Source: Janthinobacterium sp. J1-1
GTDB lineage: Bacteria; Pseudomonadota; Gammaproteobacteria; Burkholderiales; Burkholderiaceae_D
DNA length: 64,000 nt
Assembly: GCF_030944405.1 (NCBI RefSeq)
Contig: NZ_CP132339.1
Span: forward strand, 2,170,001-2,234,000
Direction of reading: 5' to 3'
Position numbers and translations under genes: made by a program. Shown piece by piece: positions 11,717 to 21,739 of this stretch (the stretch's first letter is position 1; each line of letters opens with the position of its first letter). Below the pieces are notes generated by a model, which worked only from the letters and a program-made list of their open reading frames with translations, was not told the origin of the DNA and did no database searches.

Positions 11717-12388
11717 TTAGCTTTTGTATAAATTGTGTTGTTCAATATAGTCTAGCACTAGCGGGGAAACAAGCTCGTTTGCCGGAAACCCCCGTTGTAA
11801 TGCCGCACGTATTTCGGTGGCGGAGATATCCACCGCGAAGTCTTGTGCCAGATAAGTCAGACCGTGCGGCGTGTTGCGGATGCTGCTGAGCGTGCCCAGG
11901 CGGCGCGCAAACTCCTGCGCGACTGCCGGCGGCATCGCCGTGCCATTCAACGCGAAGCCGGGGCGGGCCGCGACGCAGATATGGGCGTATTCAAATAATT
12001 GCTGCCATGCGCGCCAGGTATCGAGCCGCTGCAGCTGGTCGGCGCCCATCAGGAACACGATGGATGCTTGCGGCCCCAGTTCGGCGCGCACCTGGCGCAG
12101 GGTATCGATGGTGTAGCTGGGCTGGCCCTGCTCGCTGCGTTCGATTTCCTGCAGATCGATCATCACCGGCAGCGGCAGGCTTGAGAACGCCAGCCGCGTC
12201 ATCTCGGCGCGCTGTTCGCAGGTGGCGCCCAGGCGGCCCTTTTGCCACGGCGCGCCGGCCGGTATCACGCGCAGTGTATCGGCCTGCAGCAAACGGGAAA
12301 AATACGACCCCAGCGCGACATGGCCCGTATGCACCGGATCGTAACTGCCGCCCAACAGCGCAACGCACGCCGCAGCATTTTTCGTCAC
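11717..12388 (-). CDS. nadD: Nicotinate-nucleotide adenylyltransferase
   Basis: The 223-residue protein carries the nucleotidyltransferase motifs [17 protein letters not shown] (with HTGH) and [10 protein letters not shown] (ISxTxxR). It transfers AMP to nicotinate mononucleotide in NAD synthesis. The start is GTG at 12388, overlapping the hemF stop by four bases (GTGA), so it is translationally coupled. rsfS follows without a gap, the common nadD-rsfS-rlmH order. Confidence 0.94.
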
Positions 12389-13299
12389 GTTCGCAGCCAG
12401 TCGCGATGCACGAGAAAGTCGGTGTACAGCGCCGCCTCAGGGCTGTTCTCTTCCGGATGCCAGTCGTAGCGCCACTTGACGATGGGCGGCATCGACATCA
12501 GGATCGCCTCGGTACGTCCACCCGACTGCAGGCCGAAATGCGTGCCGCGGTCGAACACCAGGTTGAACTCGACATAGCGGCCGCGCCGGTAGGCCTGGAA
12601 ATCGCGTTCGCGCTCGCCGTATTGGGTGTCCTTGCGGCGCGCCAGAATAGGCACATAGGCGTCGATGAACGCATCGCCGGCGCTGCGCATCATGGCGAAG
12701 CTGTCGTCAAAGCCCAGGGCGTTGAAGTCATCGAAAAAGATGCCGCCCACGCCGCGCGGCTCCTTGCGGTGTTTCAAATAAAAATACTCGTCGCACCAGG
12801 CCTTGAACTTCGGATGCAGCCCGTCGCCAAACGGTTCAAGGGCATCATGGCACACCCGGTGAAAGTGCTTTACATCGTCCACGTTACCGTAATACGGCGT
12901 CAGGTCCATGCCGCCGCCGAACCACCATACCGGTTCATTGTCGGCGTTCACCGTGCTGAAAAAACGCACGTTCATGTGCACCGTCGGCGCGTACGGATTG
13001 CGCGGATGGAGCACCAGCGACACGCCCATCGCTTCCCACGGTTTGCCACCCAGTTCAGGGCGCGCGGCAGCCGCCGATGGTGGCAACGCGGCGCCGGTGA
13101 CGTGCGAAAAATTCACGCCGCCCCGCTCGAACACATTGCCTTCCTCGATCAGGCGCGAAATGCCGCCGCCGCCTTCCGGACGCTGCCAGCTGTCGGTCAG
13201 GAAAGGCTTGCCATCCTGCGCTTCGAGCGCCTGCACGATACGGCTTTGCAAATCGAGCAAATAGGCTTTGACAGCCGAAGGGGAGGGAGTGGACGACAT
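12385..13299 (-). CDS. hemF: Oxygen-dependent coproporphyrinogen III oxidase
   Basis: The 304-residue protein aligns along its length with Hem[128 protein letters not shown]. It makes protoporphyrinogen IX in aerobic heme synthesis. The open frame extends upstream, but the ATG at 13299 matches the family start. Its promoter region (13300-13400) follows the unknown four-gene cluster. Confidence 0.96.
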
Positions 13300-13400
13300 C
13301 GCGTGGGCCGACGAGGCCGAAATAAAAAAGTGAGGACGGATTGTACCCTGTAACGGATTTTTGTGATAGCAAAACCGGCGATGCTGTTGCCGGTCATGCC

Positions 13401-14204
13401 TTACCGTGGCGGCTTGTCCTGTATCACCTGCACCTCGAACTGGGGCGCATCCGTGCCTGGCTGGCGGGCATCCTCCACCATGCTGGCCGCGCGCTGTTGC
13501 AAGTCCGTGCGTTCGACCGTGTCGGCCGGCTGCGCCAGCGGCGCCACGGGCGCTGGCTGCTCGCGCCTGAACCATGAGCGCCCCGCAAACGTCAGCATCG
13601 TCAGTATCGCCAGCAGCAGCACCGCGGCCAGGATGGTGGAAGGACGCGGGCGGGGTCGGCCATATTGGGCTGGCGGCTTGCCGGCGGCGTCGACGATCAT
13701 GCGCGCCAGCGGCGCGCCGTTCGCGCGCGTGCGCGCCTGCAGCTCCTTGTATTGCAGCGGCGATAGCGTGCCCTGTTTCAGCATATGGCGCAAGGCCGCG
13801 ACGGGCGTGGCGGCCAGCTGATCGGCTGGCAGGCTGTCATGGGCAGCATCGCGCTGGCACTGGTTGATCAGGTTCATGTCGTACAGCGCGTCGACCGCTT
13901 CGCGGTTCACCTGCTGCAGCGCGGCGCTGGCCAGTTCCGTGCGCTGGTCGCCGGCAGGCAGCTTGCGCAGCATCCTGAAAAAACGGTCCCCGGGCACCAG
14001 TTCGGCGCCCAGCAGCCAGGCCAGCGTCCTGACCTGATCGGCATTCATCGCCAGTTCGGGCACATCGATGTCTTCGGCGGCGTTGTGCGCGCGCTGCAGG
14101 TCGATGATTTGCAGCTCGCCCAGCGTATCGTCGTATTCGTCGCTGGTGATCAGCTCCAGCTGCCGCAGTTCGCCGAGCGGTTTGAGACGCGGATCGGTGC
14201 TCAT
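13401..14204 (-). CDS. Unknown single-pass membrane protein, cluster member D (two helical repeats)
   Basis: The 267-residue protein has no function I recognise. Residues 9-80 and 103-160 are two diverged copies of a helical unit, L..L..L.LI...Q.DA...L......TP..AL..ML..G.LS...Y. The second copy ([23 protein letters not shown]) is very close to that of the upstream neighbour. A membrane segment follows (about 190-208), then a Pro/Gln-rich tail of 59 residues. With no signal peptide the repeats should be cytoplasmic and the tail outside, if the inside-positive rule holds (RPRPRPS precedes the segment). Its ATG overlaps the previous stop (ATGA). It is last of four genes. Confidence 0.75.
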
Positions 14205-14848
14205 GGCCGCAGGCCGCCGGTAGCAACACCGTACATCACGGACATCACCAGGATCATGCCCAGCACGATCAGCGCGCCTTTCCAGGCCGGCGGCCGCTTG
14301 TACGGGATGCGGTCATGGCCATGCCGCAGCCTGGACGCTGCCATGATCTCGCGCGCCAGTTCGCTGCCGTGCGCACGCACGCGCACCTCCAGCGCCTCGA
14401 ACTGCTGCGTGGATAGCACGCCGTTGACCACCAGCCAGCGCATGGCGATCCAGGGGGAATACAGGATGCGGTCGCCCGGCACCGCCGCGTGCGCGGCGTC
14501 GCGCTGGAACTGGTTCAGCAAATCGAGTTCATATAAATCGTCGATCTCGCGGCGGTTATAGTGCCGCACGCCGTCGGCCAGCAGCGCCTGCTGCCCGGGC
14601 GGCAGTGTGGGCATGCGCTGGTCAAGGTCATTTTTCGGAAGCAGATCGGTCAGCAGCAGCCAGCCCAGGGTACTCGCCAGGTCGGCGTCCTGCGCCAGTG
14701 CCGGCATGTCGACCGGATCCTCGGGCGGGTGCAGGCGCTCGCAGGCGGCCACGTCGCGTTCGGCGTTGGCGTCTTCCAGTTCCTGCGCGCTGATCAGGCC
14801 GAGCCGGTGCAGCTGCTGCAGCGACGGATGCGGTGGTTCGGTATGCAT
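14201..14848 (-). CDS. Unknown membrane-anchored protein, cluster member C (two helical repeats)
   Basis: The 215-residue protein has the same architecture as its downstream neighbour without the tail. Repeat one is at about residues 9-79 (LQQLHRLGLISAQELEDANA...STLGWLLLTDLLPKNDL), repeat two at about 101-156 (IDDLYELDLLNQFQRDAAHAAVP...AMRWLVVNGVLSTQQF). A single hydrophobic segment sits at 190-209, near the C-terminus, preceded by positive residues (HGHDRIPYKRPPAWK). It lies 4 bases after member B and overlaps member D by 4, so the three are surely co-translated. Function unknown. Confidence 0.75.
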   Translation of the reverse strand: MHTEPPHPSLQQLHRLGLISAQELEDANAERDVAACERLHPPEDPVDMPALAQDADLASTLGWLLLTDLLPKNDLDQRMPTLPPGQQALLADGVRHYNRREIDDLYELDLLNQFQRDAAHAAVPGDRILYSPWIAMRWLVVNGVLSTQQFEALEVRVRAHGSELAREIMAASRLRHGHDRIPYKRPPAWKGALIVLGMILVMSVMYGVATGGLRP

Positions 14849-14852
14849 GAAT

Positions 14853-16145
14853 TTACTCTTTTATTTTGGCCTGGCGCAGCTCGCCGGCAAATTGCGGCGT
14901 GACCGACCAGCCATTGCCAGCGGCGTCACGCTGGAAGGTAAACTCGCCTTCCTGCATCACCGCCACGCCGCCGTTGAGCATGCCCAGCAGGGCGTCATTG
15001 CGTTCGATCAGCAGGCGGCAGGAATAGACGCCGGGCGAGATTTCCTTGCACGGCGCCAGCGGTTCGATTTCGGCGATTTCGCGCGTGCGTTCCATCGATT
15101 GCGTCAGCGAAAACGCCTGCCGTGGCCGGGGCATGATGCGCGCGCCGTCCATGCCGGCGCGGAAAGCCTGTTCCAGCGCTTCGCGGCCCAAGGGCTTGGC
15201 CTGCTGGGCAAAGTCGCCATCCTCGATGGTGCCAAAGCGCGCCCGGACCAGCATGGGCTGCGCGCCCGCATAGCTGATGCGGTTCTTGCTGCCGCTGTCG
15301 TCGCGCGCAACGGTATAGGCATAGTCGACCTTTTCGCCATCGAGTGCGATCGTGGCCAGGCAGCCGCGGATATTGTGCGACGAGGCGTAACCGGCTTCCT
15401 TCACGTCCTGCAGGCTGGCCTTGCCCACCCCTTCCGGCGCAGCCTTGTTGAGCATGCGCGTCACGGTGGAGATCGTGTCGGTGGCGTCGCACTCGGGGAC
15501 GGAATTGCTGCTGAACAGGTACCAGACCATGCCGGCCAGCGCCAGCGGCGCGGCGATCAGCCAGGCCAGGCGCGAACCGGGAAACAGGCCATCAAGCACT
15601 ACGCCGCGCACCGCCTTTTTGTGCTCATCCTGGCGCGCTTGCGTGTGCCGGACCACGCGTTTTGCATCATCGCTGCCACCGGCCTCGATGCGCTGCACCG
15701 TGCTTTTGAACTGCGCGCGCGGCAGCAGTCCCACATGGGCCATCCAGTTCAGCGCTTCGCCCGGCGTGGGCAACAGAACCTCGTCCGGCAGGTGCTGCAG
15801 CGCCTGTTGATGCAGCTCTGGCGCAATGATCGCTTCGTCGCGCAGAGCATCGAGCGACTCGCGATTGAGCACCTCCACCACCTGCTGCAGGATCGACAGG
15901 CGCAGCGCCAGTTCGTCGCCGCTGTAGTGGCGCGCCACGCTCAGCGACAGGCTCGTCACATCCTCGGACGCGATGATCTGGCGCCGGTACAGCCACAGCA
16001 GGGCATCGGGCAGCGGCGTGCCGATGGCCAGCTGGGGCAACTCGGGATGGGCCAGCGCCTGCTCGCGCTGGCGGCGCGTGAGCAGCTTGAGCACATGCAG
16101 CGCTTCGATGGAAGTATGCGGGGAAGCAGGTTGATTGCTGGTCAT
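14853..16145 (-). CDS. Unknown bitopic membrane protein, cluster member B (repeats plus four-Cys domain)
   Basis: The 430-residue protein combines both domain types of the cluster. Residues 13-66 and 97-152 are the helical repeats (ALHVLKLLTRRQREQAL; SLDALRDEAIIAPELHQQAL...TPGEALNWMAHVGLLPRAQF). A membrane segment follows at about 191-212. The C-terminal 215 residues, probably periplasmic, have cysteines in VPECD, RGCLA, APCKE and YSCRLLIERND and end FTFQR...WSVTPQF, matching member A. The open frame extends to a TTG at 16163, but the ATG at 16145 is preferred. No known family was recognised. Confidence 0.75.
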   Translation of the reverse strand: MTSNQPASPHTSIEALHVLKLLTRRQREQALAHPELPQLAIGTPLPDALLWLYRRQIIASEDVTSLSLSVARHYSGDELALRLSILQQVVEVLNRESLDALRDEAIIAPELHQQALQHLPDEVLLPTPGEALNWMAHVGLLPRAQFKSTVQRIEAGGSDDAKRVVRHTQARQDEHKKAVRGVVLDGLFPGSRLAWLIAAPLALAGMVWYLFSSNSVPECDATDTISTVTRMLNKAAPEGVGKASLQDVKEAGYASSHNIRGCLATIALDGEKVDYAYTVARDDSGSKNRISYAGAQPMLVRARFGTIEDGDFAQQAKPLGREALEQAFRAGMDGARIMPRPRQAFSLTQSMERTREIAEIEPLAPCKEISPGVYSCRLLIERNDALLGMLNGGVAVMQEGEFTFQRDAAGNGWSVTPQFAGELRQAKIKE

Positions 16146-16154
16146 CGGGAGTGG

Positions 16155-16180
16155 GTTTATCAAGAATCAAGATGATAAAC
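16155..16180. repeat. Inverted repeat between cluster members A and B
   Basis: GTTTATCA (16155-16162) and TGATAAAC (16173-16180) form a perfect 8-bp inverted repeat with a 10-base centre, just ahead of the member B start. It could be an mRNA hairpin or a protein-binding site. There is no adjacent T-run, so it is not a good terminator. Confidence 0.4.
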
Positions 16181-16210
16181 TTTACAACATAATCTCGTTT
16201 CTCCAGCGCA

Positions 16211-16978
16211 CTATTGAAGCTGAGCCTGATCCAGTTCGTCCCTGAACTGCGGCGTGACCGACCAGTGCTTGCCATCCTTGCCGCGCTGGAAGGTGAAGTC
16301 GCCTTGCTGCAGCACCGAGAGACCCCACACGATGCTTGGCGCAATGCGCGGCAGATCGTTGCGCTCGACCAGCAGCCGGCAGGACTGGATGCCGGGCGCC
16401 ACCTCGTGGCAGGGCGCGATGGCTTCGACATCGGCAATTTCGCGGTAGTGCTGCGGCGACAGCAGCGTGCCGAGATCCGGGAACAGCAGCGGTTTGCCGC
16501 GGATAGTATCCATCCCTGCCAGCATCGCCTGCAACAGTGCCTCGCGCCCGATCGGCCCTGCCTGCTGCACAAAGTCGCCATGCCAGGCGATCTGGCCGAA
16601 GCGCGCCTGTATCAGCGCCGGCTGCGCATAGTCGTGGACGATACGGCTTTTGCGGCGGCCTTCCACACGCGTCACGGTATACGCGTATGACATGGATTTG
16701 CCGCTGGTGGTGACATTGGCCAGGCAGCCACGGGTTTTCTGCGACCACGCGTAGCCGGCCTGTTTGATATCGTGCAGGCGCATATCGCCTGTCGTCATCG
16801 TGGCCACGGTTTCCTTGTCGTCGCAGCGCGGTACCGCGTAGCTGCCGAACCAGTACCAGGCCAGGCCGGCAACGAGCAGCAAGGCAAGCGTCAGCCAGGT
16901 CAGGGGACTCAGCGGCGCATCGTTGTCTGGTGCGGCAATCCCGGTTGGATCGGTCATGGGGAGGGATGGCAATGACAT
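16211..16978 (-). CDS. Unknown membrane-anchored protein, cluster member A (four-Cys domain)
   Basis: The 255-residue protein has one hydrophobic segment near the N-terminus (about 26-46, LTWLTLALLLVAGLAWYWFG). The rest is a domain homologous to the C-terminus of member B: VPRCDDKETV, TRGCLANV, YAYTV, ARFGQI..GDFVQQAGPIGREAL, APCHEV, QSCRLLVERND, LQQGDFTFQR...HWSVTPQFRDEL. Four cysteines at matching places suggest disulfides and a periplasmic location. It lacks the helical repeats. Starts at 16978 (ATG), 16981 (TTG) or 16957 (ATG) are possible. Function unknown. Confidence 0.72.
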   Translation of the reverse strand: MSLPSLPMTDPTGIAAPDNDAPLSPLTWLTLALLLVAGLAWYWFGSYAVPRCDDKETVATMTTGDMRLHDIKQAGYAWSQKTRGCLANVTTSGKSMSYAYTVTRVEGRRKSRIVHDYAQPALIQARFGQIAWHGDFVQQAGPIGREALLQAMLAGMDTIRGKPLLFPDLGTLLSPQHYREIADVEAIAPCHEVAPGIQSCRLLVERNDLPRIAPSIVWGLSVLQQGDFTFQRGKDGKHWSVTPQFRDELDQAQLQ

Positions 16979-16984
16979 CAAATT

Positions 16985-17022
16985 GAAAACGGGCCGGGAC
17001 GGATGAACTCCGCGCCGGCCCG
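16985..17022 (-). terminator. Rho-independent terminator of purD
   Basis: CGGGCCGG (16990-16997) pairs with CCGGCCCG (17015-17022). On the minus strand the stem is followed by TTTTCAATTT. It lies 22 bases after the purD stop. Its T-run ends right at the start codon of cluster member A, so that gene needs read-through or its own, very close promoter. Confidence 0.65.
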
Positions 17023-17044
17023 CCGTGTGATCGTTATGGGACGA

Positions 17045-18313
17045 TCAATGCTTCAAACCGCGCCAGCCGATATCGCGGCGGTATTGCGCGCCGTCGAAAT
17101 GGATTTTCTCCACGGTTTCATACGCCTGCTTCTGCGCCATCTTGACGCTGTCGCCCAGGCCGACCACGCACAGCACGCGCCCGCCGTTGGTGACCAGGCG
17201 CTCGCCCTCGATGCGGGTACCCGCATGGAAGGTCACAGCGTCGTGGGTTTCGGCCGGGATATCGCCAATCGGCGTGCCCTTGACCGGATCGTCCGGGTAG
17301 CCGGCGGCGGCCATCACCACGCCCACGGCGGTGCGGCGATCCCATTCCAGTTCCACCGCGTCCAGGGTGCCGTTGACGGCGTGTTCCATCACGGTGACCA
17401 GATCCGTTTTCAGGCGCGCCATGATGGGTTGCGTTTCCGGGTCGCCCATGCGGCAGTTGAATTCCAGCGTCTTGGGCGTGCCCTTGTCGTCGATCATCAG
17501 GCCGGCGTACAGGAAACCCGTGAACGTGATGCCGTCCTTCGCCATGCCTTGAATTGTCGGCACAATGATTTCGCGCATCACGCGCGCATGCATGGCCGGC
17601 GTGACGATGGGCGCCGGCGAATAGGCGCCCATGCCGCCCGTGTTCGGGCCCAGGTCGTGGTCTTTCAGGCGTTTGTGGTCCTGGCTGGTGGCCAGCGGCA
17701 GGATGTTCTTGCCGTCGCACATGACGATAAAGCTGGCTTCTTCGCCGGCCAAAAATTCTTCGATGACGATGCGCGCGCCGGCGTCGCCGAACTGGTTATC
17801 GGCCAGCATATTGTCGACCGCCTGGTGCGCTTCTTCCAGGCTCATCGCCACCACCACGCCCTTGCCGGCGGCCAGGCCGTCGGCCTTGATGACGATCGGT
17901 GCGCCCATGGCATCGATATAGGCGTGGGCCGGTGCGACTTCCGAAAACGTCTGGTAGGCGGCCGTCGGGATGCCGTGGCGCTGCATGAAGGCCTTGGCGA
18001 AATCCTTCGACGATTCCAGCTGCGCCGCTTCTTTCGTCGGGCCGAAGATCTTCAGGCCGCGCGAGCGGAACAGGTTGACGATGCCGGCGGCCAGCGGCAC
18101 TTCCGGGCCGACCACGGTCAGGCCGATATGTTCCTGCTGAACGAAATCGGCCAGCAATTGCGGATCGCTGATGTCGAGATTGACCAGGCGCGCATCGCGC
18201 GCGGTGCCGCCGTTGCCCGGAGCGACATACACCATCTGTATGCGTTCGGACTGGGCCAGTTTCCAGGCCAGGGCGTGTTCGCGGCCGCCAGAGCCGACTA
18301 CCAGAATTTTCAT
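17045..18313 (-). CDS. purD: Phosphoribosylamine-glycine ligase
   Basis: The 422-residue ATP-grasp enzyme joins glycine to phosphoribosylamine in purine synthesis. It begins MKILVVGSGGREHALAWKLAQS and shows VYVAPGNGGTA, PTKEAAQLESSKDFAKAFM, PIVIKADGLAAGKGVVVA, the NTGGMGAYSPAPIVT loop and LEFNCRMGDPETQPIM. It follows yebC by 71 bases; a small GC hairpin (18342-18360) lies in that gap without a T-run. Confidence 0.97.
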   Translation of the reverse strand: MKILVVGSGGREHALAWKLAQSERIQMVYVAPGNGGTARDARLVNLDISDPQLLADFVQQEHIGLTVVGPEVPLAAGIVNLFRSRGLKIFGPTKEAAQLESSKDFAKAFMQRHGIPTAAYQTFSEVAPAHAYIDAMGAPIVIKADGLAAGKGVVVAMSLEEAHQAVDNMLADNQFGDAGARIVIEEFLAGEEASFIVMCDGKNILPLATSQDHKRLKDHDLGPNTGGMGAYSPAPIVTPAMHARVMREIIVPTIQGMAKDGITFTGFLYAGLMIDDKGTPKTLEFNCRMGDPETQPIMARLKTDLVTVMEHAVNGTLDAVELEWDRRTAVGVVMAAAGYPDDPVKGTPIGDIPAETHDAVTFHAGTRIEGERLVTNGGRVLCVVGLGDSVKMAQKQAYETVEKIHFDGAQYRRDIGWRGLKH

Positions 18314-18384
18314 AAGGACCGTTCGTTCAGTGTGGGGTTGCAGGGCGCCGGAAGCGCCCTTGAGGCGTACTGCTTGTTTTTTGC

Positions 18385-19110
18385 TTAGTTCTCGATCAGG
18401 GCGTTGGTAAACACTTCCTGCACATCGTCCAGCAATTCCAGCGCATCGATCAGCTTTTGCATCTTGATCGCGTCGTCGCCCGCGTACACGGTTTCGGTGG
18501 ACGGTTTCATGATCACTTCGGCCACTTCGGCCTTGAAACCAGCCGCTTCCAGCGCTTCCTTGACGGCGGCGAAATCGTGCACCGGGGTCACTACTTCGAA
18601 GCCGCCTTCTTCATCGGCGATCACGTCGTCGGCGCCCGCTTCCAGCGCCGCTTCCATCAGCTTGTCTTCGTCGGTGCCCGGCGCAAACAGCAGCTGGCCG
18701 CAGTGCTGGAACATGAAGGCGACCGAGCCTTCGTTGCCCATGTTGCCGCCGTTCTTGTTGAAGGCGTTGCGTACTTCGGCCACCGTGCGCACTTTATTGT
18801 CGGTCATGCATTCGACGATGACGGCCGCGCCGCCCACGCCGTAGCCTTCGTAGCGCACTTCTTCGTAGTTGGCGCCATCGACGCCGCCGCTGCCGCGGTT
18901 GATCGCGCGCTGGACGTTGTCTTTCGGCATATTGGCGTCGGCCGCCTTGTCGACCGCCAGGCGCAGGCGCGGATTGGTGATGGCGTCGGGACCGCCCATG
19001 CGGGCCGCCACCGTGATCTCCTTGATCAGGCGCGTCCAGATTTTGCCGCGCTTGGCATCCGTGGCAGCCTTTTTATGCTTGATGTTGGCCCATTTGCTAT
19101 GTCCTGCCAT
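18385..19110 (-). CDS. YebC/PmpR-family protein
   Basis: The 241-residue protein begins [37 protein letters not shown], the invariant YebC/PmpR signature, and has [10 protein letters not shown] and [19 protein letters not shown]. Members have been described as DNA-binding regulators and, more recently for some, as helpers of translation through proline stretches. Which role this one has cannot be decided from sequence. A clear GGAAGA-type ribosome site precedes the ATG. Confidence 0.93.
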
Positions 19111-19255: not shown

Positions 19256-21739
19256 ATGGCAAGTCAGATCAACAGGCGTCAATTCCTGAAATTGGGTGGC
19301 TTCATCACCGTGTCGGTGGCCACCGCCGGACTGACCGCCTGCGGCAGCAGCGACTACAGCGACGCCGGCGTGCCGCTGGCCTCGGGCAGCGACTGGAAGT
19401 TCCCGCAAAGCGTGGCCTCCGGCGATCCGCGCCCCGACAGCGCCATGCTGTGGACCCGCGTGGTGCCCGCCAGCCTGGACGCCGTCGCGCCGGCCCCGGC
19501 CAGCGCCGCCGAAGTGGCGGTGCGCCTGATCGTCAGCGCCACCGACAATTCGGCTTCGCTGGGCAGCAACAAGGCCTTGAGCGGCGCCAATATCGTCGAC
19601 GCCAAGCTGCCGCTGAAATCCGACTTCGACAACACCCTGCGCCACAAGGTCACCGGCCTGCAGCCGGGCCAGGTGTATTTCTACCAGTTTATCGCCGGCG
19701 ACGTGCGCTCGAACGTGGGCCGCTTCAAGACGGCGCCCGCCGCCACCGCCGACGTGGCGCAGCTGCAGTTCGCCTACCTGACCTGCCAGGACTGGAGCAT
19801 CAACCACTGGGGCGCGCTGGGCCATATCGCCGCCAATGAAAGCCTGGACTTTATCGTCCACCTGGGCGACTACATCTACGAAACGGTCGGTGAAGCGTTC
19901 CAGAGCGGCGCCGTGGAAAGCCGCCACGACCAGCTCAAACTGCCGGACGGCACTTATAAAAGCGGCAGCAGCGGCGCCAAATACGCCACCACCACCGCCG
20001 ACTACCGCTATCTGTACAAGAAATACCGCACCGATAGCCGCCTGCAGGCCGTGCACGAGCGTTTTGCCTTTATCGCCGTCTGGGACGACCACGAATTTAC
20101 CGACGACGCCTGGCAGGATGCGTCCACCTACGAAGGCATCGTGGCGGCCGACGGCAGCGACCTGCACCAGCCCACGCGCCGGCGCAGCGCCAACCAGGCC
20201 TGGTTCGAATACATGCCGGCCGACGTCACGTTCGACTCGGCCGCGACCACCTTCCAGAATATCCAGATCTACCGCGATTTCCAGTTCGGTAAACTGATGC
20301 AACTGATCATGACGGACGAGCGCCTGTACCGCGCCGACCATGCGATTCCGGAAGCGTCGATCAATCCCGCCACCGGCAAGGCGCTCGGCAGCATCGGTAG
20401 CCGCTACCTGGTGCCGCAGCAGCTGTTCGACAGCGTGGAAGCGCAAAAGATGGCGGCCGCGACGAAAGCCGGCGCCGACGCCCTGGGCGCGGTCGGCATG
20501 CTGGGCACCACCCAGCGCGAATGGTGGAAGACCAGGATGAAAGCGGCCACCTCGACCTGGAAACTGTGGGGCAATGAAGTGTCGCTGCTGCGCATGGGTT
20601 TGAATGGCGTCGATGCGATCGCCACCCTGATTGCGCTGAGCGCCATGAGCACGGTCGGCGCGGCGATCGCCTCGACCCTGCCGCTGGTCGGCGGCAGCGT
20701 GCCGCTGGCGAACGCCATCGTGGCCGCCTCGACGGCCGGCGCCAGCACCAGCGTGGCACAGGCGGCGGCAATGGCGATTGCCGGCGCGGGCAGCAATACG
20801 GCAGCGCAGGGCGCGGCGGCGGTCGGCGCGGGCCTGTCCGCGGCGCAGGCCGGCATCACGGTGGCGGCCTTCAACAGCGCCTCGCCAACGGCCGCTGCGC
20901 AAGTGATCGCCTTTGGCTGGATCAAGCCCGATGTGCAGGCCAAGCAAGCCGCCTCCACCTTTGTCACCGGTTCCGGCAAGGCGGCCTCGCTGGCGCCGTT
21001 CTTTACCCGTTTCCTGCTCAATTGCGACCAGTGGGATGGCTACAACAGCGAGCGCAAGGCGCTGATGGCGCATCTGAAAACCAACGCCATCGGCAACGTG
21101 GTGGCGCTGACGGGCGACATCCACTCCTTCTTTGCCGGCACCGTCAGCGACGATTTCGATGCCACCGGCGGCGGCACGCCGGTGATGGTCGACCTGGTGT
21201 CGGCCGGCGTCAGCTCCGACTCATTCTTCAGCTATCTGAAGTCCGCTGCGGCGGAACTGGGTGATATCGGCACCCTGGTCAGCTACCCGCTCGCGATTCC
21301 CGTCACCGGCATCGGCACCGTCAACCTCGATATCAACCTGCTCGACTACACCATGGGCAAGACGGCGCCGACCGTCGACAGCCTGCTGGAACAGCTGCGC
21401 GTGCAACTGCGCGGCGCCCTGGCGGCCAAGGGCGTGCCCGAAGCCCAGCTCGACGCGACCGTGACGGCGGTGCAGGCCGGCCTGAAGGCGAGCACGGACT
21501 TCAGCGGCACCTTGCTGGGTCTGGCGCAGCAGTTGTCGGGCCTGGGCAACAACCCGTGGATCAAGCATCTGAACACCGATGCCCAGGGTTATACGGTGGT
21601 GACCCTCACGCCAGGCAAGCTGGTGGCCCAGTTCAAGCAGGTCAATAAACTGATCGGCACTGCCGCGCCGGCGACCGTGATTGCGCGGGTGACCACGGCG
21701 ACCGTCACGGCGGGAGCGGCGGCGGTGGTGGTGGCGTAA
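19256..21739 (+). CDS. PhoD-like alkaline phosphatase with large inserts, Tat-exported
   Basis: The start MASQINRRQFLKLGGFITVSVATAG is a Tat signal (RRQFLK), and a Cys follows at LTACGSS, so it may be a lipoprotein. The PhoD core is clear: FPQSVASGDPRPDSAMLWTRV, HLGDYIYE, AVWDDHEFTDDAW, RRRSANQAWFEY, QLIMTDERLYR, WKLWGNEV and VALTGDIHSFFAG. Such enzymes hydrolyse phosphodi- or monoesters with Fe/Ca. At 827 residues it is well above the usual 520-600. An Ala/Gly/Ser-rich insert occupies about residues 450-585 and a further helical insert about 690-780. Confidence 0.88.
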   Translation: MASQINRRQFLKLGGFITVSVATAGLTACGSSDYSDAGVPLASGSDWKFPQSVASGDPRPDSAMLWTRVVPASLDAVAPAPASAAEVAVRLIVSATDNSASLGSNKALSGANIVDAKLPLKSDFDNTLRHKVTGLQPGQVYFYQFIAGDVRSNVGRFKTAPAATADVAQLQFAYLTCQDWSINHWGALGHIAANESLDFIVHLGDYIYETVGEAFQSGAVESRHDQLKLPDGTYKSGSSGAKYATTTADYRYLYKKYRTDSRLQAVHERFAFIAVWDDHEFTDDAWQDASTYEGIVAADGSDLHQPTRRRSANQAWFEYMPADVTFDSAATTFQNIQIYRDFQFGKLMQLIMTDERLYRADHAIPEASINPATGKALGSIGSRYLVPQQLFDSVEAQKMAAATKAGADALGAVGMLGTTQREWWKTRMKAATSTWKLWGNEVSLLRMGLNGVDAIATLIALSAMSTVGAAIASTLPLVGGSVPLANAIVAASTAGASTSVAQAAAMAIAGAGSNTAAQGAAAVGAGLSAAQAGITVAAFNSASPTAAAQVIAFGWIKPDVQAKQAASTFVTGSGKAASLAPFFTRFLLNCDQWDGYNSERKALMAHLKTNAIGNVVALTGDIHSFFAGTVSDDFDATGGGTPVMVDLVSAGVSSDSFFSYLKSAAAELGDIGTLVSYPLAIPVTGIGTVNLDINLLDYTMGKTAPTVDSLLEQLRVQLRGALAAKGVPEAQLDATVTAVQAGLKASTDFSGTLLGLAQQLSGLGNNPWIKHLNTDAQGYTVVTLTPGKLVAQFKQVNKLIGTAAPATVIARVTTATVTAGAAAVVVA

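Follow-up and report, generated by a model that had tools for sequence, protein, structure and literature searches.

A variable set of related single-span membrane proteins at the purD-hemF junction of Janthinobacterium

The 3.7 kb purD-hemF interval of Janthinobacterium sp. J1-1 is filled by four minus-strand open reading frames (ORFs), A, B, C and D, which encode related membrane proteins. We analysed them within a stretch of 64,000 nucleotides (NZ_CP132339.1, positions 2,170,001 to 2,234,000), referred to as the window, whose numbering is used for all coordinates below unless another locus is named. Our preferred reading, with a probability of about one half, is that they represent one family of single-pass inner-membrane proteins, an accessory and often exchanged adaptor or sensor that has been partitioned by domain loss. 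The locus is accessory, and its content often changes among close relatives. The original prediction, made from the sequence of the window, had put the cluster forward as a candidate undescribed system, which joint retention of its members in several genera would support. A single kept-together system was not supported, as the four-gene set was seen in Janthinobacterium only, in searches that for the family and the order scored the best few candidates per genome.

Gene B (14853-16145, minus strand, 430 amino acids) is the full-length form, in which a helical repeat is followed by a membrane span and a four-cysteine domain. Its helical domain (15585-16124, residues 8-187) comprises two units of about 65 residues with two hairpins each, as delimited by hhalign and the structure model. 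The span (15510-15572, residues 192-212) was placed by hydropathy and the model, and the four-cysteine domain (14856-15491, residues 219-430; Cys 219, 262, 366 and 376) by the model and alignment. Gene A (16211-16978, minus strand, 255 amino acids) has a short N-terminal tail, one membrane span and a four-cysteine domain, which forms two lobes in an AlphaFold2 (AF2) model (16214-16840, residues 47-255; Cys 52, 85, 190 and 200). The likely start of A is the ATG at 16957, 7 codons into the ORF; six of the nine relatives with a long A ORF begin at the equivalent position. Genes C (14201-14848, minus strand, 215 amino acids) and D (13401-14204, minus strand, 267 amino acids) each encode a helical domain and a membrane span without the four-cysteine domain, and D ends in a tail of about 55 residues. 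Hydropathy gave a single hydrophobic segment in each of the four proteins, which was also seen in the models of B and A. Coordinates and hydropathy therefore agree with the predicted arrangement of four minus-strand genes with one membrane segment each, with helices before the span and the cysteine domain after it. The predicted coupling of three of the genes was also confirmed, with a 4-base gap between B and C and a 4-base overlap between C and D; A and B are separated by 65 bases.

A and B each contain exactly four cysteines, at matching positions, and none of these varies among the 47 aligned proteins, of which A and B are two. A single cysteine is present in C and another in D, at other positions. 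The claim that A and B share a four-cysteine domain, and that B carries both domain types, was thus upheld. In the AF2 model of A (pLDDT 87, pTM 0.75) the cysteine part folds as two lobes with weak resemblance to cystatin/NTF2-like folds, and there is probably one disulfide per lobe. Cystatin/NTF2-like chains, among them latexin, the PBP2a N-domain, MTB12 and IseA, were frequent among the fold matches, but Z stayed below 8 and no sequence relation to these domains was found. The VirB8-like OrfG (8s7l, E 6.7e-4) and the TcpC-type structure 3ub1 stood near the top of the Foldseek list for A. Profile comparison gave no support for the two lobes being duplicates of each other in sequence. A sequence search of the PDB returned nothing for B, and a profile search one match at E 0.49. 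The cystatin/NTF2-like fold by itself says nothing about a ligand.

The helical domain of B is internally duplicated. Residues 8-75 and 92-158 matched each other by hhalign with 98.8% probability (P 1.3e-16), and the individual hairpins paired most clearly as 1 with 3 (97.3%), 2 with 4 (97.0%) and 1 with 2 (92.7%), while 3 with 4 (37%) and 1 with 4 (47%) were less clear; each slice held 45 sequences, 29 after filtering. The helices are also present in the structure model of B. Unit 2 of B matched unit 2 of D with 98.9% probability (P 2.3e-17) and C can be aligned with D, so that the helical repeat predicted to be common to B, C and D is indeed shared. Within the D/C family (14 sequences) the mutual likeness of the two units was lower, at 40.8%.

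For A to D, no entry of Pfam, NCBIfam, PHROGs or PADLOC exceeded its cut-off or had an E below 0.05. The original statement that no known domain could be recognised therefore stands for the four proteins themselves, but not for three D-type orthologs, which exceed the Pfam cut-off for SHOCT (PF09851). Of the 120 relatives listed among 148 found, PF09851 is a precomputed label in five, two of them under the NCBI name "SHOCT domain-containing protein". We scanned ten D/C-type relatives, five picked for that label and five others, against the Pfam gathering cut-off of 27 bits. Three of the ten (P0115, P0118 and P0129) passed it, at 33.9, 31.5 and 27.6 bits; two labelled relatives fell just short (25.6 and 25.4 bits), and none of the five unlabelled ones reached it. 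Neither did A to D or any of 13 B-like proteins, three of which gave matches below the cut-off (best E 0.0015; P0046, 18.7 bits). An excerpt of PMC3581485 describes SHOCT as a short, predominantly C-terminal domain and reports that its oligomerisation was tested and not supported. The five best matches here lie at residues 9-30 or 135-158 of proteins of 264-266 amino acids, i.e. they are not C-terminal. The short two-helix hairpin is common to both, but in B the hairpins are repeated, as two units of two before the span, in place of a single C-terminal copy.

We surveyed the purD-hemF junction in the 37 genomes of the genus that have both flanking genes on one contig (G000-G039 without the fragmentary G013, G026 and G034). 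The cluster or its remains occupied 12 of the 37 junctions. All four long ORFs were present in G000, G012, G016, G019, G025 and G033, and the other six genomes had a broken or missing member: A was broken or reduced in G014 and G036, B was internally deleted in G018 and G020 and C in G035, and G003 had only A, C and D, with a shorter D. A solo helical gene was found at 16 junctions, its C-terminal frame shifted in G038, and a B-like fusion at one (G015). All 16 solo-gene genomes have a single B match, which is the solo gene, and no relative of the cysteine domain; this was repeated with a profile in nine of the 16. Both the broken clusters and the solo genomes speak against a single system that is kept together.

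The remaining 8 of the 37 junctions held no family gene, in keeping with the prediction that the cluster was placed into an otherwise conserved neighbourhood. Six of them span less than 300 bp; of the other two, G006 has a methyltransferase gene alone and G022 has 1,045 bp of other sequence. Searching these eight junctions for family remnants with tblastn gave short pieces only (best E 0.12). Of 24 genomes from other families within the order, ten have purD at most about 100 bp from hemF and seven have the two genes separated by 0.5-1.6 kb; in the last seven they are apart or on different contigs, or hemF was unmatched. A mobile origin of the cluster was considered and rejected. B had no relatives in viral contigs (searched with two peptide patterns only), plasmids or phages, and the solo protein had none in plasmids. 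GC content in 1-kb windows around the site ranged from 0.60 to 0.68 with its maximum inside the cluster, which is not a strong shift, and neither the purD end nor the hemF start was duplicated in 36 junction loci (blastn).

Full-length B-like proteins, single or in tandem, occur in Janthinobacterium, Massilia, Pseudoduganella, Variovorax and Ideonella. B had 48 relatives in public proteins at E <= 0.01, and in a search of 100 genomes it matched 32, all of them among the 40 Janthinobacterium. With a 13-row profile, matches came from 29 of 245 genomes in the family (5 of 44 genera) and from 5 of 399 in the order; both counts are lower bounds, since scoring was limited to a few top first-look candidates in each genome. 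Of the twelve named loci, six are from Janthinobacterium and three from Variovorax, and Massilia, Ideonella azotifigens and Pseudoduganella buxea have one each. Two genomes of genus g11 carry tandem full-length B-like copies (three at L141 7226-11368, two at L142 7502-10356) next to a gene that by eye resembles a tRNA/rRNA methyltransferase. These copies show that local duplication of the family is recurrent. The Variovorax copies are single and lie, as judged by eye, near sigma/anti-sigma and infB-rbfA genes; no neighbour common across genera was recognised by eye at the B-like loci outside the junction. The C/D type was found only in Janthinobacterium; the two outside genomes that matched, in a search again limited to a few top candidates per genome, did so via the helical part of B-like proteins, and all source-named proteins among the 120 relatives listed (of 148 found) were from this genus. 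G027 and G022, which branch early in the genus, each have an off-site B-like gene (L070 and L071) in similar neighbourhoods, where we recognised by eye a GspE-like ATPase with a response regulator and MFS, DeoR, TetR and PCMT genes.

A tree of the outer domain (31 sequences) joined A to cluster B (99.7 SH-aLRT/99 UFBoot), A alone being supported at 100/100 and cluster B alone at 82.6/84. For the inner domain (40 sequences), the tree placed C, D, the solo genes and the G015 fusion's inner half in a single clade (100/100), apart from cluster B (100/100). Within it, C fell with the solo gene from G031 (100/100), and this tree contained no clade uniting all junction genes. A would thus be a sister copy of B that lost its inner half and became receptor-only. 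C, D and the solo gene would derive from a second full-length form, like that of G015, and have become inner-only by losing its outer half. We favour losses from these two different proteins because the full-length forms are the widespread ones; the trees also allow the G015 form to be a gain by fusion.

Mapping the presence states onto a tree of three flanking genes required 13 changes (mean of shuffles 17.4; 11 of 1000 as few), and in the core clade of 32 genomes 11 changes (mean 13.1; 115 of 1000 as few). This tree is a thin basis because the three flanking genes can themselves recombine. The states appear to track the local tree weakly, as expected under allele exchange. Median ratios of nonsynonymous to synonymous change (dN/dS) were 0.36 for A (8 sequences), 0.34 for B (9), 0.28 for C (8) and 0.48 for D (9; 34 of 36 pairs usable), and 0.42 for the solo gene (7) versus 0.095 for hemF (6). 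The median synonymous difference among orthologs was 19-37%. Judged by these sequence comparisons, the four genes are real, fast-evolving yet constrained.

Judging by its domain layout, the protein may be an adaptor that spans the inner membrane. In its widespread B-like form the protein would place two SHOCT-like helical units inside and, after one span, two cystatin/NTF2-like lobes with four invariant cysteines outside. A ligand or envelope protein would attach to the outer lobes and a cytoplasmic or sub-membrane partner to the inner hairpins. Where A to D coexist, the truncated forms may mix with B as modulators; such mixing would be optional, as the B-like and the solo form are each also found by themselves. 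The distribution speaks against an obligate complex of four proteins: the solo genomes have just one B match, and the off-site B-like genes of G022 and G027 lack a C/D partner at the junction. The hairpins recall the SHOCT-like partners of the phage shock protein (PSP) system, which also sit on membrane-associated proteins; an excerpt of PMC11237479 predicts a role for SHOCT-like domains in assembling or anchoring complexes at the inner leaflet. The outer two-lobe domain of the present family is different, however, and no PspA, PspC, Toastrack or LiaF-type gene was recognised by eye among the ORFs at the junction and off-site loci, whose neighbours were unprofiled.

Several other readings were weighed against an accessory adaptor or sensor. 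Damage in 6 of the 12 cluster genomes, the 8 of 37 junctions without a family gene and the patchy occurrence (29 of 245 and 5 of 399 genomes, scored on the best few candidates each) would also fit a lineage-specific family of little present function, whose tandem copies arise, decay and vanish with no selected complex, as would dN/dS well above that of hemF. Yet none of the four genes has a median ratio as high as 0.5 at the synonymous differences given above, the four cysteines are retained in 47 of 47 proteins, and the broken members stand beside intact ones; we regard such a family in decay as unlikely, though a serious contender. A stronger version of the adaptor proposal, in which a receptor-adaptor split by tandem duplication and reciprocal domain loss into receptor-only, full-length and inner-only subunits yields strain-specific mixes, whose alleles are swapped at a single chromosomal site through conflict with toxins, phages or neighbours, appears improbable. 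Another proposal is that these are orphan immunity or exclusion proteins that neutralise periplasmic toxins of competitors or block phage entry. This would explain copy arrays and allele switching and is in line with the poor fit of states to the flanking-gene tree in the core clade and with the tandem arrays in another genus. However, PADLOC matched no family for any of the four proteins at E up to 1, no toxin-like neighbour was recognised by eye, and the collections of viral (searched with two peptide patterns only), plasmid and phage sequences contained no relatives of B, nor the plasmids any of the solo protein. The large helical domain and the inner-only solo form also misfit a periplasmic immunity protein, and we give this proposal little credence.

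VirB8/TcpC proteins have one membrane span followed by NTF2-like outer domains. The Foldseek matches of A to OrfG and 3ub1 are consistent with a related conjugation or secretion subunit, as would be a common layout of one span and then two NTF2-like outer lobes. The present family differs in its four conserved cysteines and, in B, in the long helical repeat before the span. No VirB8/TcpC profile of Pfam matched A to D at E up to 5 and no secretion genes were recognised nearby. We consider such a subunit hardly credible. Degenerate MshEN-type motifs in the hairpin repeats, gating the outer domain, would make these proteins cyclic-di-GMP receptors; NCBIfam NF053729 (MshE-related) matched one hairpin of P0046 (E 0.00033), but at 20.4 bits this lies under its 38-bit cut-off. 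The MshEN receptor is described in an excerpt of PMC5013675 as a tandem 24-residue RLG...LxxxLxxQ motif, and neither a strict nor a relaxed form of this motif occurred in any of the 228 proteins scanned. Binding of cyclic-di-GMP via MshEN motifs was rejected on these grounds, and a receptor of this kind is very improbable.

We found no literature joining Janthinobacterium with hemF and purD or with the SHOCT domain, or combining the domain types of this family, which within these searches appears undescribed. We see it as familiar kinds of parts in a new combination, not as a system of a new kind. The analysis outlines an unnamed membrane protein family in several Burkholderiales genera and, on the proposed history, tandem copies that clearly illustrate the reciprocal loss of domains. 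Its natural inner-only and outer-only variants offer a means to probe the unclear role of SHOCT-like hairpins, and the purD-hemF junction could serve as a marker of allele exchange in Janthinobacterium.

A methyltransferase gene on the strand of the flanking genes was found at the junction in seven genomes (G004, G006, G010, G028, G030, G038 and G039), six of which also have the solo gene. It encodes 516 amino acids in G004 (L036 3452-5002; MethyTransf_Reg, PF10119), is split over two frames in G038, and could be a further cassette that is exchanged. G028 has an additional ORF (L058 4470-4931), located after the solo gene and before the methyltransferase or vice versa, with a weak 27-residue match to the PurD end (52%, E 4e-4).

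After purD, just upstream of A, a GC-rich hairpin with an 8-bp perfect outer stem is followed by TTTT (16990-17022, minus strand, by eye) and is likely the purD terminator. A like hairpin follows purD in eight of eight relatives inspected by eye. A stricter pattern matched 12 of 36 loci, and the automated scan missed the window hairpin owing to its loop limit. No sigma-70-type promoter was found in a scan directly upstream of A, and an Rfam scan of 12000-18500 gave no match. Downstream of D, a promoter-like site of hemF (ATCACA-16-TACAAT, 13340-13367, minus strand) was found once versus 0.7 expected by chance; its pattern is present in 34 of 36 junction loci, including five of six empty ones, and missing in G021 and G031. 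The stretch from the purD hairpin to A is longer in G020 (L051) by about 100 bases, which include a short palindromic repeat, GGTTAGCGCGAAGCGCGTAACC, that may be a dispersed REP-like element. Elsewhere in the window, an 827-amino-acid ORF (19256-21739), which by eye resembles a PhoD-type phosphatase, contains a long Ala-rich stretch in mid-protein.

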